Shown one piece after another: positions 6,817 through 42,772 of a stretch of 64,000 nucleotides of DNA. The notes below the pieces were generated by a model. It was not told the DNA's origin. It searched no databases and was given only the letters and a program-made list of their open reading frames with translations. Source of the DNA: Leuconostoc suionicum (lineage in GTDB: Bacteria > Bacillota > Bacilli > Lactobacillales > Lactobacillaceae); NCBI RefSeq assembly GCF_001891125.1, contig NZ_CP015247.1, positions 1,901,501-1,965,500 of the forward strand, written 5' to 3'. The translations under genes and the position numbers were made by a program. The stretch's first letter is position 1. Each line of letters begins with the position of its first letter.

Positions 6817-8082
6817 CTAAACAAGCATATTAAACAGTACCGTGTTCTCTTGCAGGTTAATATATTTTGGAAAGAACGCTGCCAAGCGTTCTGTTAGGTC
6901 ATCAACATTTGTTTCTGCACCTAATAAGACACCAACCATAACAGAACCCATCTCAGAATTTAATTTTTTTGTATACTCAAAGCGAGTAATATCATCATTT
7001 GGTCCCAAAACATTATTAACAAACTGGCGTAATGCTCCTGGACGTTGTGGAAATTCAACTAAATAGAATTGCTGACGTCCTTTATACATCAACGCTTTCT
7101 GTTCCATTTCTTGCATGCGTCCAATATCATTATTCCCGCCCGAGATAACCAAAACTACATTTTTTCCAACGATATCATCAGCCATAAAATCCAGGCTAGC
7201 TATCGGCATTGCCCCCGCTGGCTCAGCAACAATTGCTTCATAAGTATATAAGTCTAAAACCGATTGAGCAACTTTACCTTCCGGAATGCCTAGCAACTTA
7301 TCTACATGTTGTTGCGCTTGATTGTAGGTAAATTGGCTAACACAAGCAACAGCAGCTCCATCAACAAAATGATCAATATTTTCAACCTTTACCGGTTTTT
7401 TTGCCTTAAAAGCAGCTTGCATTGATTGCGCAGTTTGTGGCTCTACACCAACAACTGTTGTTTGTGGTGATATTTTTTTTGAATAAGTTGATAAACCACC
7501 AATCAAGCCACCGCCACCAACAGATGCAACTAAATAATCAACCGAAATATTTTGCTCCGCTGCATCTTCAAATATTTCTACCGCGACTGTCCCTTGCCCA
7601 GCCATAGTACGTCGATCATCAAAAGGAGCTACAAAAAACATGTTATGTTTTTCAGTATAGTCAAAGGCCGCACTTTGCGCCTCATCAAACGTATCTCCCA
7701 CTAGAATAACTGTCGCGTATCGGCCTCCAAAACGCTTGACAGCTTCCACTTTTTGATTTGGTGTAGTTACAGGCATAAAAATAGTTGCTTGTATTTTTAA
7801 ATTATGACAAGTATCAGCTACGCCTTGTGCATGGTTTCCAGCTGATGCAGCGACAACGCCATTATTGAGCTTTTCTTTCTCTGCCTTAATGATATTATAA
7901 TAAGCCCCTCGTATTTTAAAAGAACGAACGCGTTGCATATCTTCTCTTTTAAGATAAATATTCGCCTTATACTTTTTTGAAAGGTAGTCATCATAGGCCA
8001 AAGGAGTATGCGTTACTACTTTTGATAAGACTCGATGTGCTTCTTCTATTTCTTCAGCCGTTAGCTTTGCCACAGTTGTCAT
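6817..8082 (-). CDS. ilvA: Threonine dehydratase (threonine deaminase)
   Basis: PLP enzyme turning threonine into 2-oxobutanoate and ammonia, the first step to isoleucine. The PLP Lys is K56 in VRSFKIRGAYYN; the phosphate-binding loop is SVGGGGLIGG; AAGNHAQGVA and a Ser-rich region near SGGNND also match. A C-terminal ACT-like regulatory domain of about 90 residues follows (FYLVEFPQRPGALRQFV), suggesting feedback control by isoleucine, with one such domain rather than the two of the E. coli enzyme. The 421-residue start is preferred because GGAG lies nine bases before this ATG; a TTG five codons upstream is the alternative. It follows ilvC on the same strand after about 75 bases. Confidence 0.93.
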   Translation of the reverse strand: MTTVAKLTAEEIEEAHRVLSKVVTHTPLAYDDYLSKKYKANIYLKREDMQRVRSFKIRGAYYNIIKAEKEKLNNGVVAASAGNHAQGVADTCHNLKIQATIFMPVTTPNQKVEAVKRFGGRYATVILVGDTFDEAQSAAFDYTEKHNMFFVAPFDDRRTMAGQGTVAVEIFEDAAEQNISVDYLVASVGGGGLIGGLSTYSKKISPQTTVVGVEPQTAQSMQAAFKAKKPVKVENIDHFVDGAAVACVSQFTYNQAQQHVDKLLGIPEGKVAQSVLDLYTYEAIVAEPAGAMPIASLDFMADDIVGKNVVLVISGGNNDIGRMQEMEQKALMYKGRQQFYLVEFPQRPGALRQFVNNVLGPNDDITRFEYTKKLNSEMGSVMVGVLLGAETNVDDLTERLAAFFPKYINLQENTVLFNMLV

Positions 8083-8156
8083 ATAATTCATCTCCAATTA
8101 TTAATTCATTTTTATGTACGAAAAGCATCATTTTTTAGACAATGCTTCTCATTTTA

Positions 8157-9200
8157 TTACTTCGCTGCTGAGAATTGTTCAGTATCCGCTGCTGTTGAAT
8201 ACTTGTCAGCATCTGAAATCCATGGCATCATGGCACGAACCTTCTTACCAGTTTGTTCGTACAAACCACTCTTGTACTCTGTACGCATCTTTTCCAAATC
8301 CTTCAAACCAGAGTTGTATTCTGCCAACCACTTCTTAGCGTACGTACCATCTTGGATATCTTTCAAAACATCACGCATTCCTTGCTTTGATTCTTCAGTA
8401 ATGATACGTGGGCCATTCAACATTTCACCATATTCACAAGTGTTTGAGCAATCATGTCTCATCTTTTCGAAACCACCTTCGAAAATCAAATCGACAATCA
8501 TCTTCATTTCATGTGATGTTTCAAAGTAAGCCAATTCTGGTGAATAGCCAGCTTCAACCAATGTGTTAAATCCAGCTTCAATCAACGGTGTCAAACCACC
8601 ACAAAGAACAGCTTGTTCACCGAATAAATCTTCAGTTGTTTCTTCTTCAAAGCTTGTTTCCAAAATACCTGCGCGACCTGATCCAATACCCTTAGCATAA
8701 GCTTTGGCAACGTCAGCTGTGTCACCAGTAGGATCTTGCTGTACACCATACAAAGAAGGAATACCACCACCTTCAACGAATTGACGACGTTCAATGTTCC
8801 CAGGACCCTTAGGCGCAATAATCATGACATTGATGTCAGCATTTGGCTTAATCAAACCATACACAATGTTAAATCCATGAGAAAATCCAAGATATGAACC
8901 AGCTTTAATGTTAGGTTCCACTTCTTTTTCCCAAACAGAAGCTTGCAATTCATCTGGTGTTTCCATCATGATAATATCTGCTTGAGCCGTAGCTTCTGCT
9001 GCTGAATAAACTTCAAATCCATCTTTTTTAGCGCTATCAAAAGACTTCCCTGGACGCAAGCCCATGATGACATCAAATCCTGAGTCTCGTAAGTTATTTG
9101 CTTGAGCATGTCCTTGTGCACCATACCCAATGATAGCTATTTTTTTACCTTCTAATGGTGTTGTATCAATATCCTTGTCATAAAACATCTTTGTAGCCAT
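8157..9200 (-). CDS. ilvC: Ketol-acid reductoisomerase
   Basis: NADPH- and Mg-dependent isomeroreductase of valine and isoleucine synthesis. The 347 residues are of the short class I type: Rossmann motif GYGAQGHAQANNL, the cofactor region GLRPGKSFDSAKKDG, APKGPG and the knotted C-terminal domain with EQAVLCGG, YFETSHEMKMIVDLIFEGG and SNTCEYGE. The start at MATKMFYDKD is chosen because GGAGG lies eight bases upstream; the frame stays open 19 codons further, to within ilvN. It is third in ilvB-ilvN-ilvC, and ilvA may be cotranscribed. Confidence 0.96.
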   Translation of the reverse strand: MATKMFYDKDIDTTPLEGKKIAIIGYGAQGHAQANNLRDSGFDVIMGLRPGKSFDSAKKDGFEVYSAAEATAQADIIMMETPDELQASVWEKEVEPNIKAGSYLGFSHGFNIVYGLIKPNADINVMIIAPKGPGNIERRQFVEGGGIPSLYGVQQDPTGDTADVAKAYAKGIGSGRAGILETSFEEETTEDLFGEQAVLCGGLTPLIEAGFNTLVEAGYSPELAYFETSHEMKMIVDLIFEGGFEKMRHDCSNTCEYGEMLNGPRIITEESKQGMRDVLKDIQDGTYAKKWLAEYNSGLKDLEKMRTEYKSGLYEQTGKKVRAMMPWISDADKYSTAADTEQFSAAK

Positions 9201-9234
9201 AGTAAAATCCTCCATGATTTTAAATTCTTTTTGA

Positions 9235-9480
9235 TTAATAATGGCAAAATCCATCATTTACTGCTAATACATCTAATTGTTTTAATAAATTACGTCGAAC
9301 TGTTGCCGTTTGTTTTTCGTCTTCAGATTCAAAAATAAATGAAATCGTGGAAATTTTTTGATCTTCATCAGGCGTGACCATCAACGACTTAATGTTCAAA
9401 TTCAAGCGAGTTAGTACACTCGCAAATCTAACTAACAAACCAGGCCTGTTATACACACGTGTTATAAATGTCTTATCCAT
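9235..9480 (-). CDS. ilvN: Acetolactate synthase small subunit, short ACT-only form
   Basis: Regulatory subunit of acetohydroxyacid synthase. Only 81 residues are present, forming one ACT domain (ITRVYNRPGLLVRFASVLTRLNLNIKSLMV) and ending after ISFIFESEDEKQTATVRRNLLKQLDVLAV. The C-terminal half found in 155-175-residue IlvN/IlvH proteins is missing, and the downstream sequence runs straight into ilvC with no remnant of it. The start codon overlaps the ilvB stop (TAATG), a sign of translational coupling. Short ACT-only forms like E. coli IlvN exist, so it may work, but feedback behaviour could differ. Confidence 0.88.
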   Translation of the reverse strand: MDKTFITRVYNRPGLLVRFASVLTRLNLNIKSLMVTPDEDQKISTISFIFESEDEKQTATVRRNLLKQLDVLAVNDGFCHY

Positions 9481-11189
9481 TAAGCTTCCTCCTCAGTAAT
9501 CATATCCCGATAAGCTGCGCCAGCGTTAACCATTGGCAAAACTTTTACATCATCTGGAATAATCACTTCAATAAGAATTGACTTATCTGAGTCAAAGGCT
9601 TCCTGCAACTCTTCAAACATACTATTTGGATTATCAATCCGAGCATAGTTAATATCATATGCTTGTGCTAGTTGATCAAATCGTGGTTGCGACTTGAAAA
9701 CTGTATTAGACAATCGACCGTCAAAAAACAATGTTTGCCATTGTCTAACCATGCCCAGCGAATGATTATTAAACATAACAATCTTAATGTTTAAATTATT
9801 ATCATTCAAAATTGCTAGTTCTTCCGATGTCATTTGGAACCCGCCATCACCGACAAAGAGCACAACTTCTTTTTCTCGTCTAGCAAATTTGGCCCCAATA
9901 GCTGCAGGTAGGCCATACCCCATTGTTCCTAAACCACCAGAAGTTATCATTTGGTAGTTATGCTTGAATGGATAAAATTGTGCTGCCCACATCTGATGTT
10001 GCCCAACATCTGTTACCACTATCGCATTCCCCTCGGTAACTTCACCAACGGCTTGAATTACTTCTTGAGGCATGATAGCAGTTTTCAACTTATGATAGTG
10101 AAAAGTTGATTCGCCTTTAGCGTGCTGGTTCAAATTTTGCCATGCTGATGTATCAGTCATCGTTCTATTCTTCAATTCAGAAAGAATAGCATTTAAAGCA
10201 TCATCAGCACTGGCGTGAATAGCATAAGTTGTCGACAATACTTTTTCTAACTCTGTTGCATCAATATCAACATGGGCAATTATTGCATTTTTTCCAAAAT
10301 CGTCTACATTTGTCACAACACGATCATCAAACCTTGAACCAATATTCAAAATAAAATCTGCTTGATCGATTGCTGTGTTAGCTGCAACAGACCCATGCAT
10401 ACCAACCATTCCCAGGAACAGTTGATCATCAGAATCAACAGCACCCAACCCTAATAATGTCGACACAACTGGTATATGATAACGATGCATTAATGTTCGT
10501 AATAATTCTTGTGCATTTGATTTCAAAACCCCTGCCCCAGCAATAATAAGTGGCTGACGAGCTTTAGACAAAGCTGCTACTAATTGGCGTACCTTAACAG
10601 TATCAACAACAGGTTTAGCATTATCAATTTGGTGGAAGAATGTATTAGCATGATTATTTTCATCATTTTTTGCCAACATAACACTTTTCGGCAAATCAAT
10701 TAGCACAGGACCCGGTCGACCAGAGACTGCGACCTTAAATGCTTCTTCAACAATTAATGGTAATTCGCTAACTGTTCTAACTTGATAGCTCATCTTAGTT
10801 ATAGAACTTGTTATAGACAAAATATCTAACTCTTGAAAAGCATCTGAACCAATAGCTGCGGAACCCACTTGACCAGATATAACCACTAATGGAACTGAAT
10901 CACAAAAGGCATCTGCAATTCCAGTAACTGTATTTGTTGCACCTGGTCCTGAGGTGACTAGCACAACACCTGGTTTCCCCGTGGCCTTTGCATAGCCTTC
11001 TGCAGCATGCGAAGCTGCCTGTTCATGACGAACAAGTATATGGTTGATACTCGATTCATATAGCGCATCATATAGTGGTATAACTGCCCCGCCAGGATAA
11101 CCAAAGAGACTGTCAACACCTGCTTTCTCTAAAGAATCTAGTAGTATCTGAGCACCATTCTTACTTTCGGTTAATACTACATTTTTCAT
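9480..11189 (-). CDS. ilvB: Acetolactate synthase large subunit
   Basis: Thiamine-diphosphate enzyme condensing pyruvate to acetolactate (valine, leucine) or with 2-oxobutanoate to acetohydroxybutyrate (isoleucine). The 569 residues show LFGYPGGAVIPLYDAL, the catalytic Glu in LVRHEQAASHAAEGYA, GPGATN, the FAD/middle domain, and the ThDP motif GDGGFQMTSEELAI..NN near 440-470. FAD-region and length match anabolic IlvB rather than catabolic AlsS. It is first in the ilvBNC(A) transcription unit, with a TTGACA promoter about 80-105 bases upstream and no leader attenuator in between. Confidence 0.96.
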   Translation of the reverse strand: MKNVVLTESKNGAQILLDSLEKAGVDSLFGYPGGAVIPLYDALYESSINHILVRHEQAASHAAEGYAKATGKPGVVLVTSGPGATNTVTGIADAFCDSVPLVVISGQVGSAAIGSDAFQELDILSITSSITKMSYQVRTVSELPLIVEEAFKVAVSGRPGPVLIDLPKSVMLAKNDENNHANTFFHQIDNAKPVVDTVKVRQLVAALSKARQPLIIAGAGVLKSNAQELLRTLMHRYHIPVVSTLLGLGAVDSDDQLFLGMVGMHGSVAANTAIDQADFILNIGSRFDDRVVTNVDDFGKNAIIAHVDIDATELEKVLSTTYAIHASADDALNAILSELKNRTMTDTSAWQNLNQHAKGESTFHYHKLKTAIMPQEVIQAVGEVTEGNAIVVTDVGQHQMWAAQFYPFKHNYQMITSGGLGTMGYGLPAAIGAKFARREKEVVLFVGDGGFQMTSEELAILNDNNLNIKIVMFNNHSLGMVRQWQTLFFDGRLSNTVFKSQPRFDQLAQAYDINYARIDNPNSMFEELQEAFDSDKSILIEVIIPDDVKVLPMVNAGAAYRDMITEEEA

Positions 11190-11267
11190 AGCTTACTCCC
11201 TTCTTAAAATTATCAGCCACTTTGAAAATTAGTAAAATTAGATTTTGATTAACAAAGCAACAAGTGT

Positions 11268-11296
11268 ATTGTGACAAATCGAATTAGTGATGTCAA
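11268..11296 (-). promoter_or_regulatory. ilvB promoter
   Basis: On the minus strand a perfect TTGACA (11291-11296), a 17-base spacer and CACAAT (11268-11273) lie upstream of ilvB. The predicted untranslated leader is only about 70 bases, too short for a T-box or a peptide attenuator. The rest of the 318-base gap to the ABC gene is A/T rich and shows no other clear element. Confidence 0.6.
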
Positions 11297-11507
11297 CTTG
11301 ATTAATATAAAAAAGACTAAAAAATATCAACACAAAGCTTCATAAACTTTTATATATCAGTGTTTGAAAATATAATATATAACTTTGGAATATTTTAATG
11401 TATATAATAACGGAATATTTCAGTCAATTGAGACAGTTAACAATTTATAAAAATGATATTCTAAATGTATTGTTTCATTTTTTTTTAATCTAAAGGAGAA
11501 TATTTAT

Positions 11508-12299
11508 ATGGCAGAAGACGCAGTATTATCAATGGAAAACGTTTCATTTGAAAGAGAAAAAATGATATTACAAAATATCAATTGGACTCTAAAAAAAGGC
11601 GAAAATTGGGTATTGATGGGTTTGAACGGTGCCGGTAAAACAACATTATTGTCACTGCTTTATGGTGATTATTGGGCTACTACTGGAAAAATAAACGTTC
11701 TCGGAGAAACATTTGGAAAAACTAACGTCCTAGAACTTAAAAAAAGAATTGGCCTAATTTCTACGGCTATTCAATCACAATTCCCAGAACACCATTTAGC
11801 GCAATATATTGTTTTAAGTGGAAAGTTCGGTACGATTGGTATTCATAACGATTTTGAACAAAGTGATTTGAACGAAGCAATTAACTTACTAGAAAAATTA
11901 GGTGGATCTGAGCTAATCAATAAACAATACCGAGTTTTATCACAAGGTCAACGTCAATTAGTTTTAATTGCAAGAGCTCTCCTGGGTAATCCTGAGTTAC
12001 TTATACTTGACGAACCCTGCAATGGTCTAGACTTATTTGCTCGTGAATCATTATTAGTACAAATTAATAAACTTGCACAACTACCCAATCATCCAACATT
12101 ATTATTTGTTTCGCACTACACTGAAGAAATTTTGCCAATTTTTCAACATGTAATGCTGCTCAAAAATGGCAAAATCTTTGCACAGGGAACTCGTAGTGAG
12201 ATATTGACTGAGTCACTACTTTCAAAATTTTATCCTAAACCAATTAAAATCATACCTATATCAAATCAAAGAATTGCTGTATATCCAGCTAATTTATGA
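11508..12299 (+). CDS. ABC transporter ATP-binding protein (YlmA-like)
   Basis: A single ABC ATPase domain of 263 residues: Walker A GLNGAGKTT, Q-loop region STAIQSQFPEH, signature LSQGQRQLVLIARALLGNPELLILDEP with Walker B, and the H-loop SHYTEEI. There is no membrane partner next to it, so whether it drives transport is unknown; ATPases of this stand-alone type resemble YlmA and ModF. From memory, the lactococcal leu-ilv cluster carries an ABC ATPase open reading frame between leuD and ilvD, so its place beside ilvB may be ancestral. A good AAAGGAGA site precedes the ATG. It is read away from ilvB. Confidence 0.85.
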   Translation: MAEDAVLSMENVSFEREKMILQNINWTLKKGENWVLMGLNGAGKTTLLSLLYGDYWATTGKINVLGETFGKTNVLELKKRIGLISTAIQSQFPEHHLAQYIVLSGKFGTIGIHNDFEQSDLNEAINLLEKLGGSELINKQYRVLSQGQRQLVLIARALLGNPELLILDEPCNGLDLFARESLLVQINKLAQLPNHPTLLFVSHYTEEILPIFQHVMLLKNGKIFAQGTRSEILTESLLSKFYPKPIKIIPISNQRIAVYPANL

Positions 12300-12314
12300 A
12301 ATTAAAATGTGAAC

Positions 12315-12343
12315 TTGACTTGAAATTATATATATGTTTTAAT
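12315..12343 (+). promoter_or_regulatory. Promoter of the orphan ilv leader
   Basis: TTGACT (12315-12320), a 17-base spacer and TTTAAT (12338-12343) precede the leader peptide start by about 30 bases. The leader RNA therefore seems to have its own promoter, apart from read-through from the ABC gene. Confidence 0.5.
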
Positions 12344-12373
12344 TAAATGAAATAAACGTACGGAGAAAAAGCT

Positions 12374-12436
12374 ATGAATAAAACCATGTCAGTAACTAAT
12401 CAACTCATTCTCAGCGTCATCGTCATTATTACTTAA
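12374..12436 (+). CDS. Branched-chain amino-acid leader peptide (attenuator)
   Basis: A 20-residue open reading frame with a GGAG ribosome site eight bases before its ATG. Its last ten residues are LILSVIVIIT, so eight of ten are Leu, Ile or Val, followed by TAA. This composition is the hallmark of ilv leader peptides, in which ribosome stalling at Leu/Ile/Val codons controls an RNA switch. Alternating hairpins and a strong terminator follow directly, as expected. No biosynthesis gene lies downstream on this strand; the next gene (phosphoketolase) is convergent. The gene is too short to be scored by normal gene finders. Confidence 0.72.
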   Translation: MNKTMSVTNQLILSVIVIIT

Positions 12437-12487
12437 TGACAATGAGCTGATATTTATTCTGCTCATTTGTCATTCCAGACTATGAGC
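12435..12487 (+). promoter_or_regulatory. Mutually exclusive hairpins of the ilv attenuator
   Basis: Segment 12435-12447 pairs with 12461-12474 (13-14 bases, one bulge) to form a 1:2 hairpin starting in the leader stop codon. GCTCAT at 12461-12466 can instead pair with ATGAGC at 12482-12487. The same bases cannot do both, which is the layout of a ribosome-controlled attenuator. Confidence 0.6.
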
Positions 12488-12506
12488 AGCTGATATGGTG
12501 ATTTTT

Positions 12507-12545
12507 AAAGCCCCTGATTAGCTAGCTAATCAGGGGCTTTTATCA
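12507..12545 (+). terminator. Attenuator terminator
   Basis: A perfect 34-bp palindrome (17-base arms beginning AAAGCCCCTGATTAGCT) ending in a short T run. It is the strongest hairpin of the region and sits about 70 bases after the leader peptide stop. From here to the phosphoketolase terminator (12546-12677) no gene or gene remnant is visible. Confidence 0.85.
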
Positions 12546-12677
12546 TTTATTTATTAAAATGAAATATTTTCTGCAAATTACCTAATTTTTGGAAAAACAC
12601 AGTTCATCCATAACTTTTTTCGGCTTATTTCACTTGGTCTTATTTGTTGCACAGTTGTTTTTCTTATTTTTCACAAT

Positions 12678-12711
12678 AAAAAACCAACTATTAAAATAAT
12701 AGTCGGTTTTT
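12678..12711 (-). terminator. Terminator after phosphoketolase
   Basis: AAAAACCGACTATT and AATAGTTGGTTTTTT (minus strand) pair around a short loop just past the xpkA stop. T runs on both strands make it probably bidirectional. Confidence 0.8.
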
Positions 12712-12728
12712 ACAAAGTAACCTATAGA

Positions 12729-15170
12729 TTACTTAAGTGGTGACCAGTTCCAGTCAGTGAATTCTTCGATATCACGACCTTCATTACGAGTAACTTCGAA
12801 ATGCTTTGCCAATGTGTCATCCATCTTAGCGATAAATGTATCAGCTGCAGCTTGATCAATCTTACCATTTGCAGATAAGATTTCAGCAGCTTCCTTAGCT
12901 TGGTGGAAACGATCCAAGTGTGAGTATACACGCATGTCGTATGTCGTTGTGATGTCACCATCTTCACGATATCCATGAACATATACATCACCAGTGAACT
13001 TACGTTCGAAGAAGAATGATTCAATCAAGTCTTCATAAGCATGGAAACCAAAGATAACCGGTGTATCAGCTTGGAAGTACTTGTTAAATTCTTCAGGTGA
13101 TAATTCACGTTCGTCGTTCATGTTAGGTTCTGACTTCTTTTGCAAACGTAGCAATTCAACAACGTTAACATAACGGAACTTAACTTCTGGGAATGCTTGG
13201 TTAATCAACCACAAGGCAGCCAAAGTTTCAATTGTAGGTTCTGTACCAGCAGATGCAAATGTAATATCTACATCACCAGAAGGTGCAGTAGAAGCCCAAT
13301 CAATGATCTTCAAACCTTCGTTGGCCAATACTTCAGCTTCTTCAACTGTAAACCATTGTTGACGTGGTTGCTTAGAAGCAATCAACAAGTTAACCTTGTG
13401 ACGTTCTGAGAAGGCACGTTCTTGAACAGCCAACAATGAGTTACCATCAGCTGGCAAGTATTCGCGAATGAAGTTTGACTTCTTTTCAGCCAAGTGAGTC
13501 AACATACCTGGATCTTGGTGAGTATATCCATTGTGATCTTGTTGGAAAGCAGTTGAAGTTGCAATCAAGTTCAATGATGGATAGTCATTACGCCATGCTT
13601 GTTCTGAAGCGTGACGCAACCACTTGAAGTGTTGTGTAACCATTGTATCGACAACACGAAGGAATGATTCGTATGATGCGAAGATTCCAACACGACCAGT
13701 CAAAGTATATCCTTCAAGCCAACCTTCAGCTTGGTGTTCTGACAATTGTGAATCAATAATACGACCCGCAGGACTCAACAATTGGTCTTGGGGTTCTTTG
13801 ATTTCTTCCATCCATTGACGTGGTGTAACATTGAACAATCCCCACAAACGGTTTGACATTGTTTCATCAGGACCGAAGAAGCGGAAACGAGTTGGGTTCA
13901 ATTCTGAAACGGCACCCAAGTAATTTGACAATGTCGCCATATCCATGTTGCGCTTGCTATCAGCAAATTCCTTACCACGTGTATCATCATTGATATCGTT
14001 GGCGAACTCTCTCCAGTTAGGCAACTTTAAGTCTGAACGATCAGCACCACCATTAGTGATAGGGTTAGCTGACATACGCTTGTCACCCTTTGGAGCAATA
14101 GCTTTCAACTCATCTTTCAGAGTTCCATCAGTATTGAACAATTCTTCAGGCTTGTATGAATTCATCCAAGCTTCGAATTCTGGTAATGTTGTCAAATCAT
14201 TTTGTGCAAGAGGCAATGGTACTTGGTGCGCACGGAATGAATTTTCAATAGGATTGTTACTTGCATCGTGCGTTGGTCCACCCCAGCCCTTAGGCAAGCG
14301 AGCAATAATAACTGGCCATGCAGGGATTGTACCATCTTGATACTTACCATTTTCACGAGCATCCTTTTGGATAGCTTGAATGTCTTCAATAGCTTGATCC
14401 AAAATGTTTGCTGCTAATTGGTGATAAGTTGCGTAGTCATGAATATCATCATTTTCAATGAAGCGTGGTGAGTAACCCAATCCTTCAAAGAACTTTGTGA
14501 TTTCTTCATCACTCATACGTGAGAAGATAGTTGGGTTTGAAATCTTGAATCCGTTCAAATCCAAGATAGGCAAAACGGCACCATCATTCTTTGCATTCAA
14601 GAACTTGATTGAATGCCATGAAGCCATTGATGGACCTGTTTCGGCTTCACCATCACCAACAACTGCGAAAGCAACTTGGTCAGGATTATCCAAAACGGCA
14701 CCAAAAGCATGACTCAATGAATAACCTAATTCACCACCTTCGTGTAATGAACCTGGTGTTTGAGCTGTCATGTGTGATCCAATTCCGCCAGGGAATGAGA
14801 AACGCTTAAACAAGTGGCTCATGCCCTTGATATCTTGAGTAATTTCAGGATAATCTTCAGTATATGCGCCGTCCAAGTATGCGTTAGTAACCATAACTTG
14901 ACCACCGTGACCAGGACCACCAATATAAAACATGTTCAAACCATACTTGTTAATCAAACGATTAGCATGTGCATACAAGAAAGTTTGACCTGAGATAGTA
15001 CCCCAGTGTCCAATTGGCTTGACTTTTACGTCTTCAGCCTCGATAGGTGTATTAGTAACTGAGAACAATGGGTTGCTCTTCAAGAAGATCATCCCCGCTG
15101 ACAAATAGTTAGTTGCGCGCCACCACTTATCAACAAGTTCCAAGTACTCTTTTGAATCAAAATCTGCCAT
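12729..15170 (-). CDS. xpkA: Xylulose-5-phosphate/fructose-6-phosphate phosphoketolase
   Basis: Central enzyme of heterofermentative metabolism. It splits xylulose-5-phosphate with phosphate into acetyl-phosphate and glyceraldehyde-3-phosphate using thiamine diphosphate. The 813-residue length is typical. Seen: [14 protein letters not shown], the His-rich active-site region [19 protein letters not shown] and YIGGPGHGG, the ThDP motif [27 protein letters not shown], and the C-terminal [10 protein letters not shown] and [14 protein letters not shown]. Dense use of preferred codons fits high expression. It has its own strong promoter and terminator. It also receives xylulose-5-phosphate made by the ascorbate operon at 45-51 kb. 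Confidence 0.98.
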
Positions 15171-15247
15171 GAGATTAAGTACTCCTTATTTTTTGCAAGA
15201 ATAATAAACACCGTAAACCACGAACTTCTTCCGTTATTTACTCCTAT

Positions 15248-15276
15248 AGTATAACCGATTATACTTTTTTCTTCAA
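15248..15276 (-). promoter_or_regulatory. xpkA promoter
   Basis: On the minus strand TTGAAG (15271-15276), a 17-base spacer and TATACT (15248-15253) lie about 80 bases before the xpkA start. Confidence 0.7.
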
Positions 15277-15331
15277 GGGAAAAGGTCCAATTGGGTCAGG
15301 TTTTTAAAAAATATGGTTGGTTTTTAATTAC

Positions 15332-15349
15332 AATTGGAACGTACCAATT
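15332..15349. promoter_or_regulatory. Palindrome upstream of the xpkA promoter
   Basis: AATTGG and CCAATT flank ACGT with one mismatch pair, giving an 18-bp near-perfect palindrome about 55 bases upstream of the -35. It has no T run and looks like a protein-binding site. Its sequence differs from the GntR-type operator at 16195-16205. Confidence 0.35.
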
Positions 15350-15372
15350 ACACGTTGATTTGTTCTCTACAT

Positions 15373-15406
15373 AAAAAACAGATCTTGCACACTAGATCTG
15401 TTTTTA
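15373..15406 (-). terminator. Terminator after the GntR gene
   Basis: AACAGATCT and AGATCTGTT pair around an 8-base loop, with A and T runs outside. It separates the regulator from xpkA. Confidence 0.75.
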
Positions 15407-15441
15407 TTGCGTTTATATATTAATTTTCTATTAATGTAAGT

Positions 15442-16170
15442 TTATTCGGAATCTAAGCTCACAAAAGCATTATAGCGGAGGTACTTATAATGTAATCGCA
15501 TCGTCGAAAATTCCAAAGGCGTACCATCATCCATGAAGAAGATTCCTTCCATAATACCGACAGGTTCAGTAGCTTTCAGTTCAAGCAATTCCTGATCCTC
15601 CGTATTAGAAGGCTCTGCCATAATCGTCATAAATGACTTTGTAACTGTGCGATGCTTATTTTTTTCAATGTATTCGTAGACTGACCCAGAAACTATACTT
15701 CTGTTTAATCCGGGCAATACATTAATGGGTACATAGCCACGTTCAATCATAAATGGCACACCTTCCAAACGACGTAACCGCTTAATTTCATATACAAAAT
15801 CACCATCATTAAGAAAAAGCGCTTGCTGTTGTTCTGGTGTTGCTGGAATCACTTGGAAATCAAGCAATTCGATACTTGGTGCTTGCCCGTCAACACGAAA
15901 TGAATCGGACACACCTAGGTTGGATCCTTCATGTTGAAAAATCGCATGATTTTTAAGATATAATGGATTAACAAAAGTACCACTACCACGTTTTTTAAAA
16001 ATAACGCCCTGTTGAACTAACACATTTAGTGCACGCTTAATTGAAGAACGTGAAACACCATACTGCTCGGCTAATGAACGTTCATCTGGTAATTTTAAGT
16101 TTGGAAATTCACCTTGGTAAATTTTCTGTTTTAGATCCGCTTGTACGGTCACATAAATAGCTTCTGACAT
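15442..16170 (-). CDS. GntR-family (HutC/UTRA) transcriptional regulator
   Basis: The 242-residue protein starting MSEAIYVTVQ has an N-terminal winged helix (LPDERSLAEQYGVSRSSIKRALNVLVQQGVIFKKRGSGTFV) and a C-terminal UTRA ligand-binding domain. Such domains usually sense a sugar phosphate or amino sugar; the ligand cannot be told. An upstream in-frame ATG eight codons earlier exists. The chosen ATG lies only about ten bases after an extended -10 (TGTTATACT) and has no ribosome site, so the mRNA is probably leaderless. A perfect TGGTC-N-GACCA palindrome lies between it and the divergent ybaK gene. Confidence 0.88.
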   Translation of the reverse strand: MSEAIYVTVQADLKQKIYQGEFPNLKLPDERSLAEQYGVSRSSIKRALNVLVQQGVIFKKRGSGTFVNPLYLKNHAIFQHEGSNLGVSDSFRVDGQAPSIELLDFQVIPATPEQQQALFLNDGDFVYEIKRLRRLEGVPFMIERGYVPINVLPGLNRSIVSGSVYEYIEKNKHRTVTKSFMTIMAEPSNTEDQELLELKATEPVGIMEGIFFMDDGTPLEFSTMRLHYKYLRYNAFVSLDSE

Positions 16171-16194
16171 AATGTTATTTAGTATAACATACAT

Positions 16195-42644: not shown

Positions 42645-42686
42645 AAAAAATAACCGCCTTAGCTCTGCAATCTAGCGGTTATTTTA
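42645..42686. terminator. Bidirectional terminator after the small peptide
   Basis: AAAATAACCGC pairs perfectly with GCGGTTATTTT around a 17-base loop; T runs on both strands. Confidence 0.8.
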
Positions 42687-42772
42687 ACTATATCAATAAT
42701 GACATCGTTTTATACGGATCGACGTGGGAAGACTTGTTCACGCAAGGCTTCCTTTTCTTTTGCATTATATTA

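Follow-up and report, generated by a model that had tools for sequence, protein, structure and literature searches.

The window (the whole stretch of 64,000 nucleotides of Leuconostoc suionicum DNA that was analysed) contains, between an ABC transporter ATPase gene and a convergent phosphoketolase gene, a leader region at 12315–12545. Direct reading of the DNA showed in it a promoter, a GGAG site, a 20-codon frame, hairpins that compete with each other and a terminator formed by a perfect 34-nt palindrome. The features at the locus are as follows.

6817–11189, minus strand: ilvB-N-C-A cluster, divergent from the ATPase gene
11508–12299, plus strand: ABC transporter ATPase gene, directly upstream of the leader
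12315–12343, plus strand: promoter TTGACT-17-TTTAAT, with TATG just 5' of the -10 (extended -10)
12362–12365, plus strand: ribosome-binding site GGAG, eight bases before the ATG at 12374
12374–12436, plus strand: leader peptide frame MNKTMSVTNQLILSVIVIIT (ATG 12374 to TAA 12436), with a run of Leu/Ile/Val codons
12411–12450, plus strand: segment 1:2 hairpin, in which the codon run pairs with sequence around and after the stop
12434–12474, plus strand: alternative 2:3 pairing, AATGACAATGAGC with GCTCATTTGTCATT, its complementarity kept in five of five gene-less copies (below), the diverged G001 included
12459–12489, plus strand: segment 3:4 hairpin, CTGCTCAT...ATGAGCAG, from folding, covariation and duplex energies
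12488–12523, plus strand: possible weak 4:5 antiterminator, AGCTGAT (12488–12494) with ATTAGCT (12517–12523, in the terminator 5' arm)
12507–12545, plus strand: intrinsic terminator, a perfect 34-nt palindrome (12507–12540) and a T-rich tail
12679–12713, no strand assigned: at the phosphoketolase 3' end, an inverted repeat with T/A tails, read by eye and conserved in the alignment
12729–15170, convergent: phosphoketolase gene (xfp), the next gene after the leader, its end less than 200 bases from the terminator

The promoter is absent from the program-made promoter scan list, the scan requiring an A at position 2 of the -10 hexamer. The ATPase stop codon lies only 15 bases before the leader -35, so that gene lacks its own terminator. 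The leader terminator was scored as a 15-pair stem with a 4-base loop, and its palindrome matches its own opposite strand. The segment 12348–12550 folded at -70.4 kcal/mol, a value that not one of 200 dinucleotide shuffles equalled (-37.7 ± 4.4; z -7.4). Direct reading and folding are in agreement with the original prediction for the promoter, the GGAG site, the 20-codon frame ending in LILSVIVIIT, the hairpins and the perfect 34-bp palindrome. The further claim, that this is a complete amino-acid attenuator without a downstream gene, also held: in the window no same-strand gene lies behind the leader, only the convergent phosphoketolase gene, and the same arrangement recurs in four other genomes. 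No frame of at least 80 residues was found between the terminator and xfp; shorter frames remain possible in this stretch, which is not conserved. Read-through of the leader terminator might also end at the inverted repeat of 12679–12713. The ilvBNCA leader had been said to lack an attenuator, and indeed no terminator-like site was found before ilvB in 11180–11520.

At Rfam gathering scores this part of the window gave no match, and at E values up to 1 there was none over the leader in L107, L077, L086 and L138. A T-box riboswitch was considered and set aside, there being no Rfam match at the leader locus. Elsewhere in the window, 42682–42767 (minus strand) matched the RatA RNA antitoxin family above its gathering score (53.8 bits).

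Relatives of the leader were sought by DNA similarity and with a covariance model. The DNA search of 151 family genomes (best five candidates of each scored) gave matches in at least four genomes of other genera; of these four, two (G081 and G025) cover the leader and lie directly before a BrnQ-like carrier gene, and two cover the terminator end only. The brnQ gene of the L. suionicum genome (G000:C1:1383906-1385183, PF05525 match) is preceded by a like leader with the peptide MTYQSTTTEQIIISIIIIR. The covariance model, R1, was built from 13 leaders including the five gene-less ones, and these five therefore match by construction. R1 matched in at least 50 of 397 family genomes (best eight candidates of each scored) and in 19 of 19 genus genomes at E <= 0.01, with weak genus matches in G006 (its only one) and as the second ones of G004 and G005; as far as examined, the G006 and G005 matches fall within coding sequence. 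In an order sample of 295 genomes (74 genera) three matched at E <= 1e-4, all of them Lactobacillaceae, and the plasmid collection searched for the leader gave no match.

Seventy-eight of the 83 model matches were examined (left out were G182, G202, G219, G185:C3 and G004:C846), and 69 precede a same-strand gene. The gene behind the leader is brnQ in 36 and a hydratase-family gene in 18 (one truncated, G004:C78), nine of these 18 being followed after about 1 kb by an intact brnQ and two by a brnQ remnant, as judged by positions. It is a membrane protein gene resembling a PTS-type permease in 6 (labelled by eye; the one tested had no NCBIfam match), an MFS-type transporter gene in 4 (by eye), a GshA-like gene in 2 (the one tested fell below the curated cut-off), and a PTS-like gene and an HTH regulator gene in one each (by eye). 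Five matches have nothing behind them on the same strand and are the gene-less copies; three were judged spurious (G005:C1:714626 and G006, inside coding sequence, and G080), and one lies at a contig end (G331). The L. suionicum genome has four leader copies, i.e., before brnQ, the hydratase-family gene and the permease-like gene, and the gene-less one. The ilv/leu-type ancestry assumed by the original prediction was not supported, a single examined match (G135) preceding ilvD and most preceding brnQ; by these neighbours the gene-less leader appears to be of brnQ-type ancestry. A literature search, with subscription journals mostly outside its scope, found among the papers listed no description of a Lactobacillaceae brnQ-type leader family or of a gene-less attenuator.

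Other leaders may be mentioned here. In the genus there are two kinds of brnQ (L016-L019 and L021-L023 versus L024-L026 and L033-L035) under different RNA switches: one paralogue is behind a T-box-like leader (by eye), the other behind a leader-peptide attenuator. In divergent orientation to ilvD (L194-L196, L198; G013:C12:27775-27909, L144) is a gene labelled by eye as an HTH-type regulator, seemingly with its own leader, which has a Leu/Ile-rich frame (MNKKITKMNNVLIILLVIM in G013) and a terminator-like hairpin. At L118 4319–4444 and L124 4462–4583 a related leader precedes a glutamate-cysteine-ligase-like gene; in its run (MIKSASINLTVSVSSVTH in L118) Val/Ser codons take the place of Ile codons, and the run may sense something else.

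Leader-peptide attenuators for branched-chain amino acids have been described in Staphylococcus aureus and Listeria monocytogenes (PMC6123439), and a His leader peptide in bacilli (PMC2965389; his genes are also treated in PMC9413887). As far as the available parts of the sources go, the window leader resembles the ribosome-mediated attenuators of E. coli ilv/leu and of the S. aureus and L. monocytogenes ilv-leu genes (PMC6123439, PMC5794164) in its promoter, ribosome-binding site, short Leu/Ile/Val-rich frame, mutually exclusive hairpins and intrinsic terminator. It differs from them in having no gene behind it and no Rfam family match, in that its relatives mostly precede brnQ and not ilv/leu, and in that most of these relatives have an additional 4:5 pairing in competition with the terminator. 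With the brnQ leaders of the genus and family it shares the promoter motif, the Ile/Leu/Val-rich peptide end, pairings 1:2 and 3:4 and the terminator, but those leaders stand before brnQ, a hydratase-family gene or some other gene, and in most of them the 4:5 antiterminator is stronger.

The original prediction had proposed a search of other Leuconostoc genomes; a gene-less leader was found in 5 of 19 genus genomes, in each case without a same-strand gene behind it. These are the genomes of the window (G000), L. litchii MB7 (G013), G014 (which we take to be L. mesenteroides ATCC 8293), L. miyukkimchii JCM 17445 (G015) and L. carnosum DSM 5576 (G001). None of the five has a same-strand frame of at least 100 codons starting within 200 bases downstream, nor a frame of at least 80 codons nearby (there is one at 1209 bases in L. 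carnosum, antisense to xfp). The next gene is xfp in four of them, and in L. carnosum a convergent NUDIX-like gene (label by eye) lies between leader and xfp. In G010:C1 (L044, L060) two phosphoketolase genes close to that of the window (97% and 94%) are about 28 kb apart. Five of the 19 genus genomes carry the ATPase gene (E <= 1e-70), all five having the gene-less leader directly 3' of it, 11–15 bases separating its stop codon from the leader -35. The ilvC gene is present in the same five (E <= 1e-40), and ilvD in these and in G018. Neither the DNA search nor the covariance model found a gene-less copy in the other 14 genomes (one weak G004 match being left out), or a gene-less copy away from the ATPase gene. 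Because a contiguous block can be lost in one step, co-occurrence with ilv is weak evidence of joint function, and the linkage may perhaps reflect only a block lost as one piece. The suggestion that an operon was deleted and left its switch behind fared less well: a recent deletion is unlikely, and was rejected as the main reading, the gene-less state being common to five species and ATPase four-fold sites being saturated between three groups (L. suionicum with L. litchii; G014 with L. miyukkimchii; L. carnosum).

With the ATPase gene 15 bases away, its four-fold degenerate sites are the proper local yardstick for the leader. Compared with L. suionicum they are 35% identical in G014, 32% in L. 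miyukkimchii and 34% in L. carnosum, i.e., saturated; the leader is 81%, 76% and 57% identical in the same comparisons, and the intergenic DNA just after the terminator 41% (G014) and 38% (L. miyukkimchii). Between L. suionicum and G014 the segments are identical at 73% (promoter), 77% (5' UTR), 87% (peptide), 88% (segment 2 region), 81% (3:4 hairpin), 75% (linker) and 79% (terminator), followed by 41% for the next intergenic stretch and 82% for the repeat at the xfp 3' end. The margin is smaller in closer pairs, leader versus four-fold sites being 93% versus 84% for L. suionicum and L. litchii and 89% versus 75% for G014 and L. miyukkimchii. A leader at 81% beside saturated four-fold sites and a 41% flank argues, as the original prediction did, against long neutral decay, which these comparisons exclude for most of the leader's history. 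The need of the ATPase gene for a 3' end accounts for part of the conservation, namely that of the terminator; the segment values indicate that more than the terminator matters.

Four-fold identity between L. suionicum and G014 varies among other genes (ilvB 48%, ilvC 60%, gntR 38%, xfp 87%), partly because of codon bias and perhaps of recombination. Across 8157–16194 of the window the ilv-ATPase block is nearer to L. litchii (84–91%) than to G014 (35–60%) at four-fold sites, gntR likewise (61% versus 38%), and xfp is about equally near (83% versus 87%); DNA exchange between species is a possible cause of this pattern.

Conservation of the individual parts was unequal. The promoter hexamers, their spacing, the TATG and the GGAG are kept in all five gene-less copies. 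The Leu/Ile/Val run is intact in three (L. suionicum, G014 and L. carnosum), eroded in L. litchii and lost in L. miyukkimchii. It is identical, LILSVIVIIT, in L. suionicum and G014 with one silent change; in L. carnosum it reads LNLVVIILL (peptide MTNKNNTISAVHLNLVVIILL), again Leu/Val/Ile codons. In L. litchii it has become LIRSIIVSIS, five of six codon changes altering the residue (among them Leu to Arg and Ile to Ser), and in L. miyukkimchii a one-base insertion causes a frameshift that removes the run. An unbroken frame with the same end exists in four of five copies, and five of the first ten peptide residues differ between L. suionicum and G014. Amino-acid sensing thus seems dispensable in two of the five gene-less copies, to judge from their codons. 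The original prediction had made its case depend on conservation of the frame and hairpins in relatives: promoter and hairpins stood in five of five, whereas the frame is broken in L. miyukkimchii and the run eroded in L. litchii.

In each of the five copies, no more than 14 of 1000 one-strand shuffles matched any one of the duplexes 1:2, 2:3 and 3:4, for which the segments were chosen by the analyst. Even the L. carnosum leader, only 57% identical, has the promoter spacing, the GGAG, the competing pairings and the terminator. When segments were exchanged between L. suionicum and L. carnosum, the 1:2 and 2:3 duplexes were weaker on average and the 3:4 duplex was not; this shows retained complementarity, not clear compensation. 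The covariance test of the hairpins that had been called for gave a divided answer. On the R1 alignment of 13 leaders the 3:4 helix had both sides changed in 5 of 10 pairs, and the two helices together had 19 double-change cells, where shuffles gave 6.5 and slid controls no more than 4. Two other measures did not stand out: 55 of 500 shuffles reached the observed count of doubly changed pairs (5), and "further pair types" (11) were below the shuffled mean of 13.0.

The 4:5 duplex had shuffle fractions of 0.036 (L. miyukkimchii) to 0.194 in the five gene-less copies, only that of L. miyukkimchii being below 0.05; the fraction was 0.05 or less in 43 of 60 other leaders, doubtful matches being kept in. 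The ratio of 4:5 to terminator energy was 0.39–0.52 in four of the five gene-less copies and 0.69 in L. miyukkimchii; the 60 others had a median of 0.65 (lower quartile 0.53). The terminator pattern failed in 15 of 78 leaders, L. carnosum and L. miyukkimchii included, and the terminators of these two were entered by hand. By these calculated energies the gene-less terminators outweigh the 4:5 pairing more than is usual in four of five copies.

The leader is derived from an attenuator and is built like one; it is not classed as a working attenuator, because cis control of a downstream amino-acid gene was tested and was not found. We give about an even chance to the reading that it is a stand-alone copy of a brnQ-type ribosome-mediated attenuator which selection has maintained as an independent small RNA gene, presumably acting in trans. 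From the pairing alone, we infer that in the gene-linked leaders a ribosome stalled in the Leu/Ile/Val run would free segment 2 to pair with segment 3, which in turn would free segment 4 for the terminator arm (five-segment attenuation); all minimum-energy folds of truncated leader sequences kept the terminator. These parts are also present in the gene-less copy, which would have nothing to switch on in cis, its product being the terminated RNA; transcription from about 12350 to about 12545 would give an RNA of about 195 nt. As the terminator outweighs the weak antiterminator, most transcripts are predicted to terminate. In copies with an intact codon run, stalling of the ribosome upon shortage would shift the RNA towards the 2:3 pairing and leave less of it terminated, so that the terminated RNA would signal a sufficient supply of branched-chain amino acids; its output would be tuned by the supply of these amino acids where the run survives and constitutive where it is lost. 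The leader terminator would also end the ABC ATPase mRNA. The fuller form of this reading, i.e., an attenuator turned into a free-standing ribosome-gated small RNA gene that reports Leu/Ile/Val sufficiency, acts in trans, is inherited with the ilv block and has been kept beyond the memory of neutral sites, in some species even after loss of the sensor codons, is put forward tentatively, at somewhat less than even confidence.

The RNA may act in trans on other genes. There is a precedent in rnTrpL, the trp attenuator RNA of Sinorhizobium meliloti, which acts in trans (PMC7298713, in the part of that source available); it too is a terminated attenuator RNA with a leader-peptide frame, but rnTrpL is still the leader of trpE(G), whereas the window switch has no gene, and trans action here is only an inference. 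A duplex search against the 5' regions of 55 window genes picked by script, which was crude and had no genome-wide background, gave no target: with paired parts masked ilvB ranked 52nd of 55, ilvA 13th, ilvC 14th, the ATPase gene 19th and xfp 25th, and unmasked they ranked 11th, 27th, 54th, 48th and 34th, respectively.

It is also conceivable, though we think it unlikely, that the leader is a relic: two or more lineages would each have lost, at a rather late stage, an ancestral brnQ-type gene behind the leader, the remainder now decaying and only the terminator being needed, for the ATPase mRNA. The L. miyukkimchii frameshift and the residue-altering changes in L. litchii would then be decay in progress, the short distance behind the ATPase gene leaves no room for another terminator, and the different neighbour in L. 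carnosum is compatible with separate losses. However, with all five species gene-less one ancestral event is simpler, the promoter, 5' UTR, peptide and hairpin segments are still 73–88% identical to G014 where the ATPase four-fold sites are saturated, and the 2:3 alternative was kept in all five.

The constant position behind the ATPase stop, the failure to find a gene-less copy elsewhere and the lack of a terminator between the two would also suit a 3'-end control element, in which transcription of the ATPase gene continues into the leader, and ribosomes translating the leader frame determine the 3' end and the stability of the ATPase mRNA. Such an element has no need of its own promoter, present with exact spacing in five of five, and there is no downstream gene for read-through to reach; we regard it as distinctly unlikely.

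Read-through upon Leu/Ile/Val shortage could instead produce antisense RNA against, or collision with, the convergent phosphoketolase gene, which ends near enough to the terminator and would require just the competing pairings that were retained; this is very improbable, as the convergent neighbour differs in L. carnosum, the inverted repeat of 12679–12713 might stop the read-through, the intervening DNA is not conserved (41%) and the antiterminator is weak. Nor is it at all probable that the hydrophobic 20-residue peptide is itself the product, acting in trans as does the leader peptide peTrpL (PMC7298713, available part): the ribosome-binding site in all five copies and the frame in four speak for it, and the L. 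miyukkimchii frameshift, the Arg and Ser replacements in L. litchii and the divergent first ten residues against it.

If the preferred reading is correct, and the leader is a stand-alone attenuator copy kept as a small RNA gene, it bears on how such switches are regarded. An attenuator is seen as an accessory to the gene under its control, and a complete one that persisted without a gene through several species would show that a switch can become a gene. A gene-less attenuator would also be a clean natural system for testing trans action of terminated leader RNAs. As a by-product, the survey describes in the Lactobacillaceae a family of branched-chain amino acid leaders that has no Rfam match.
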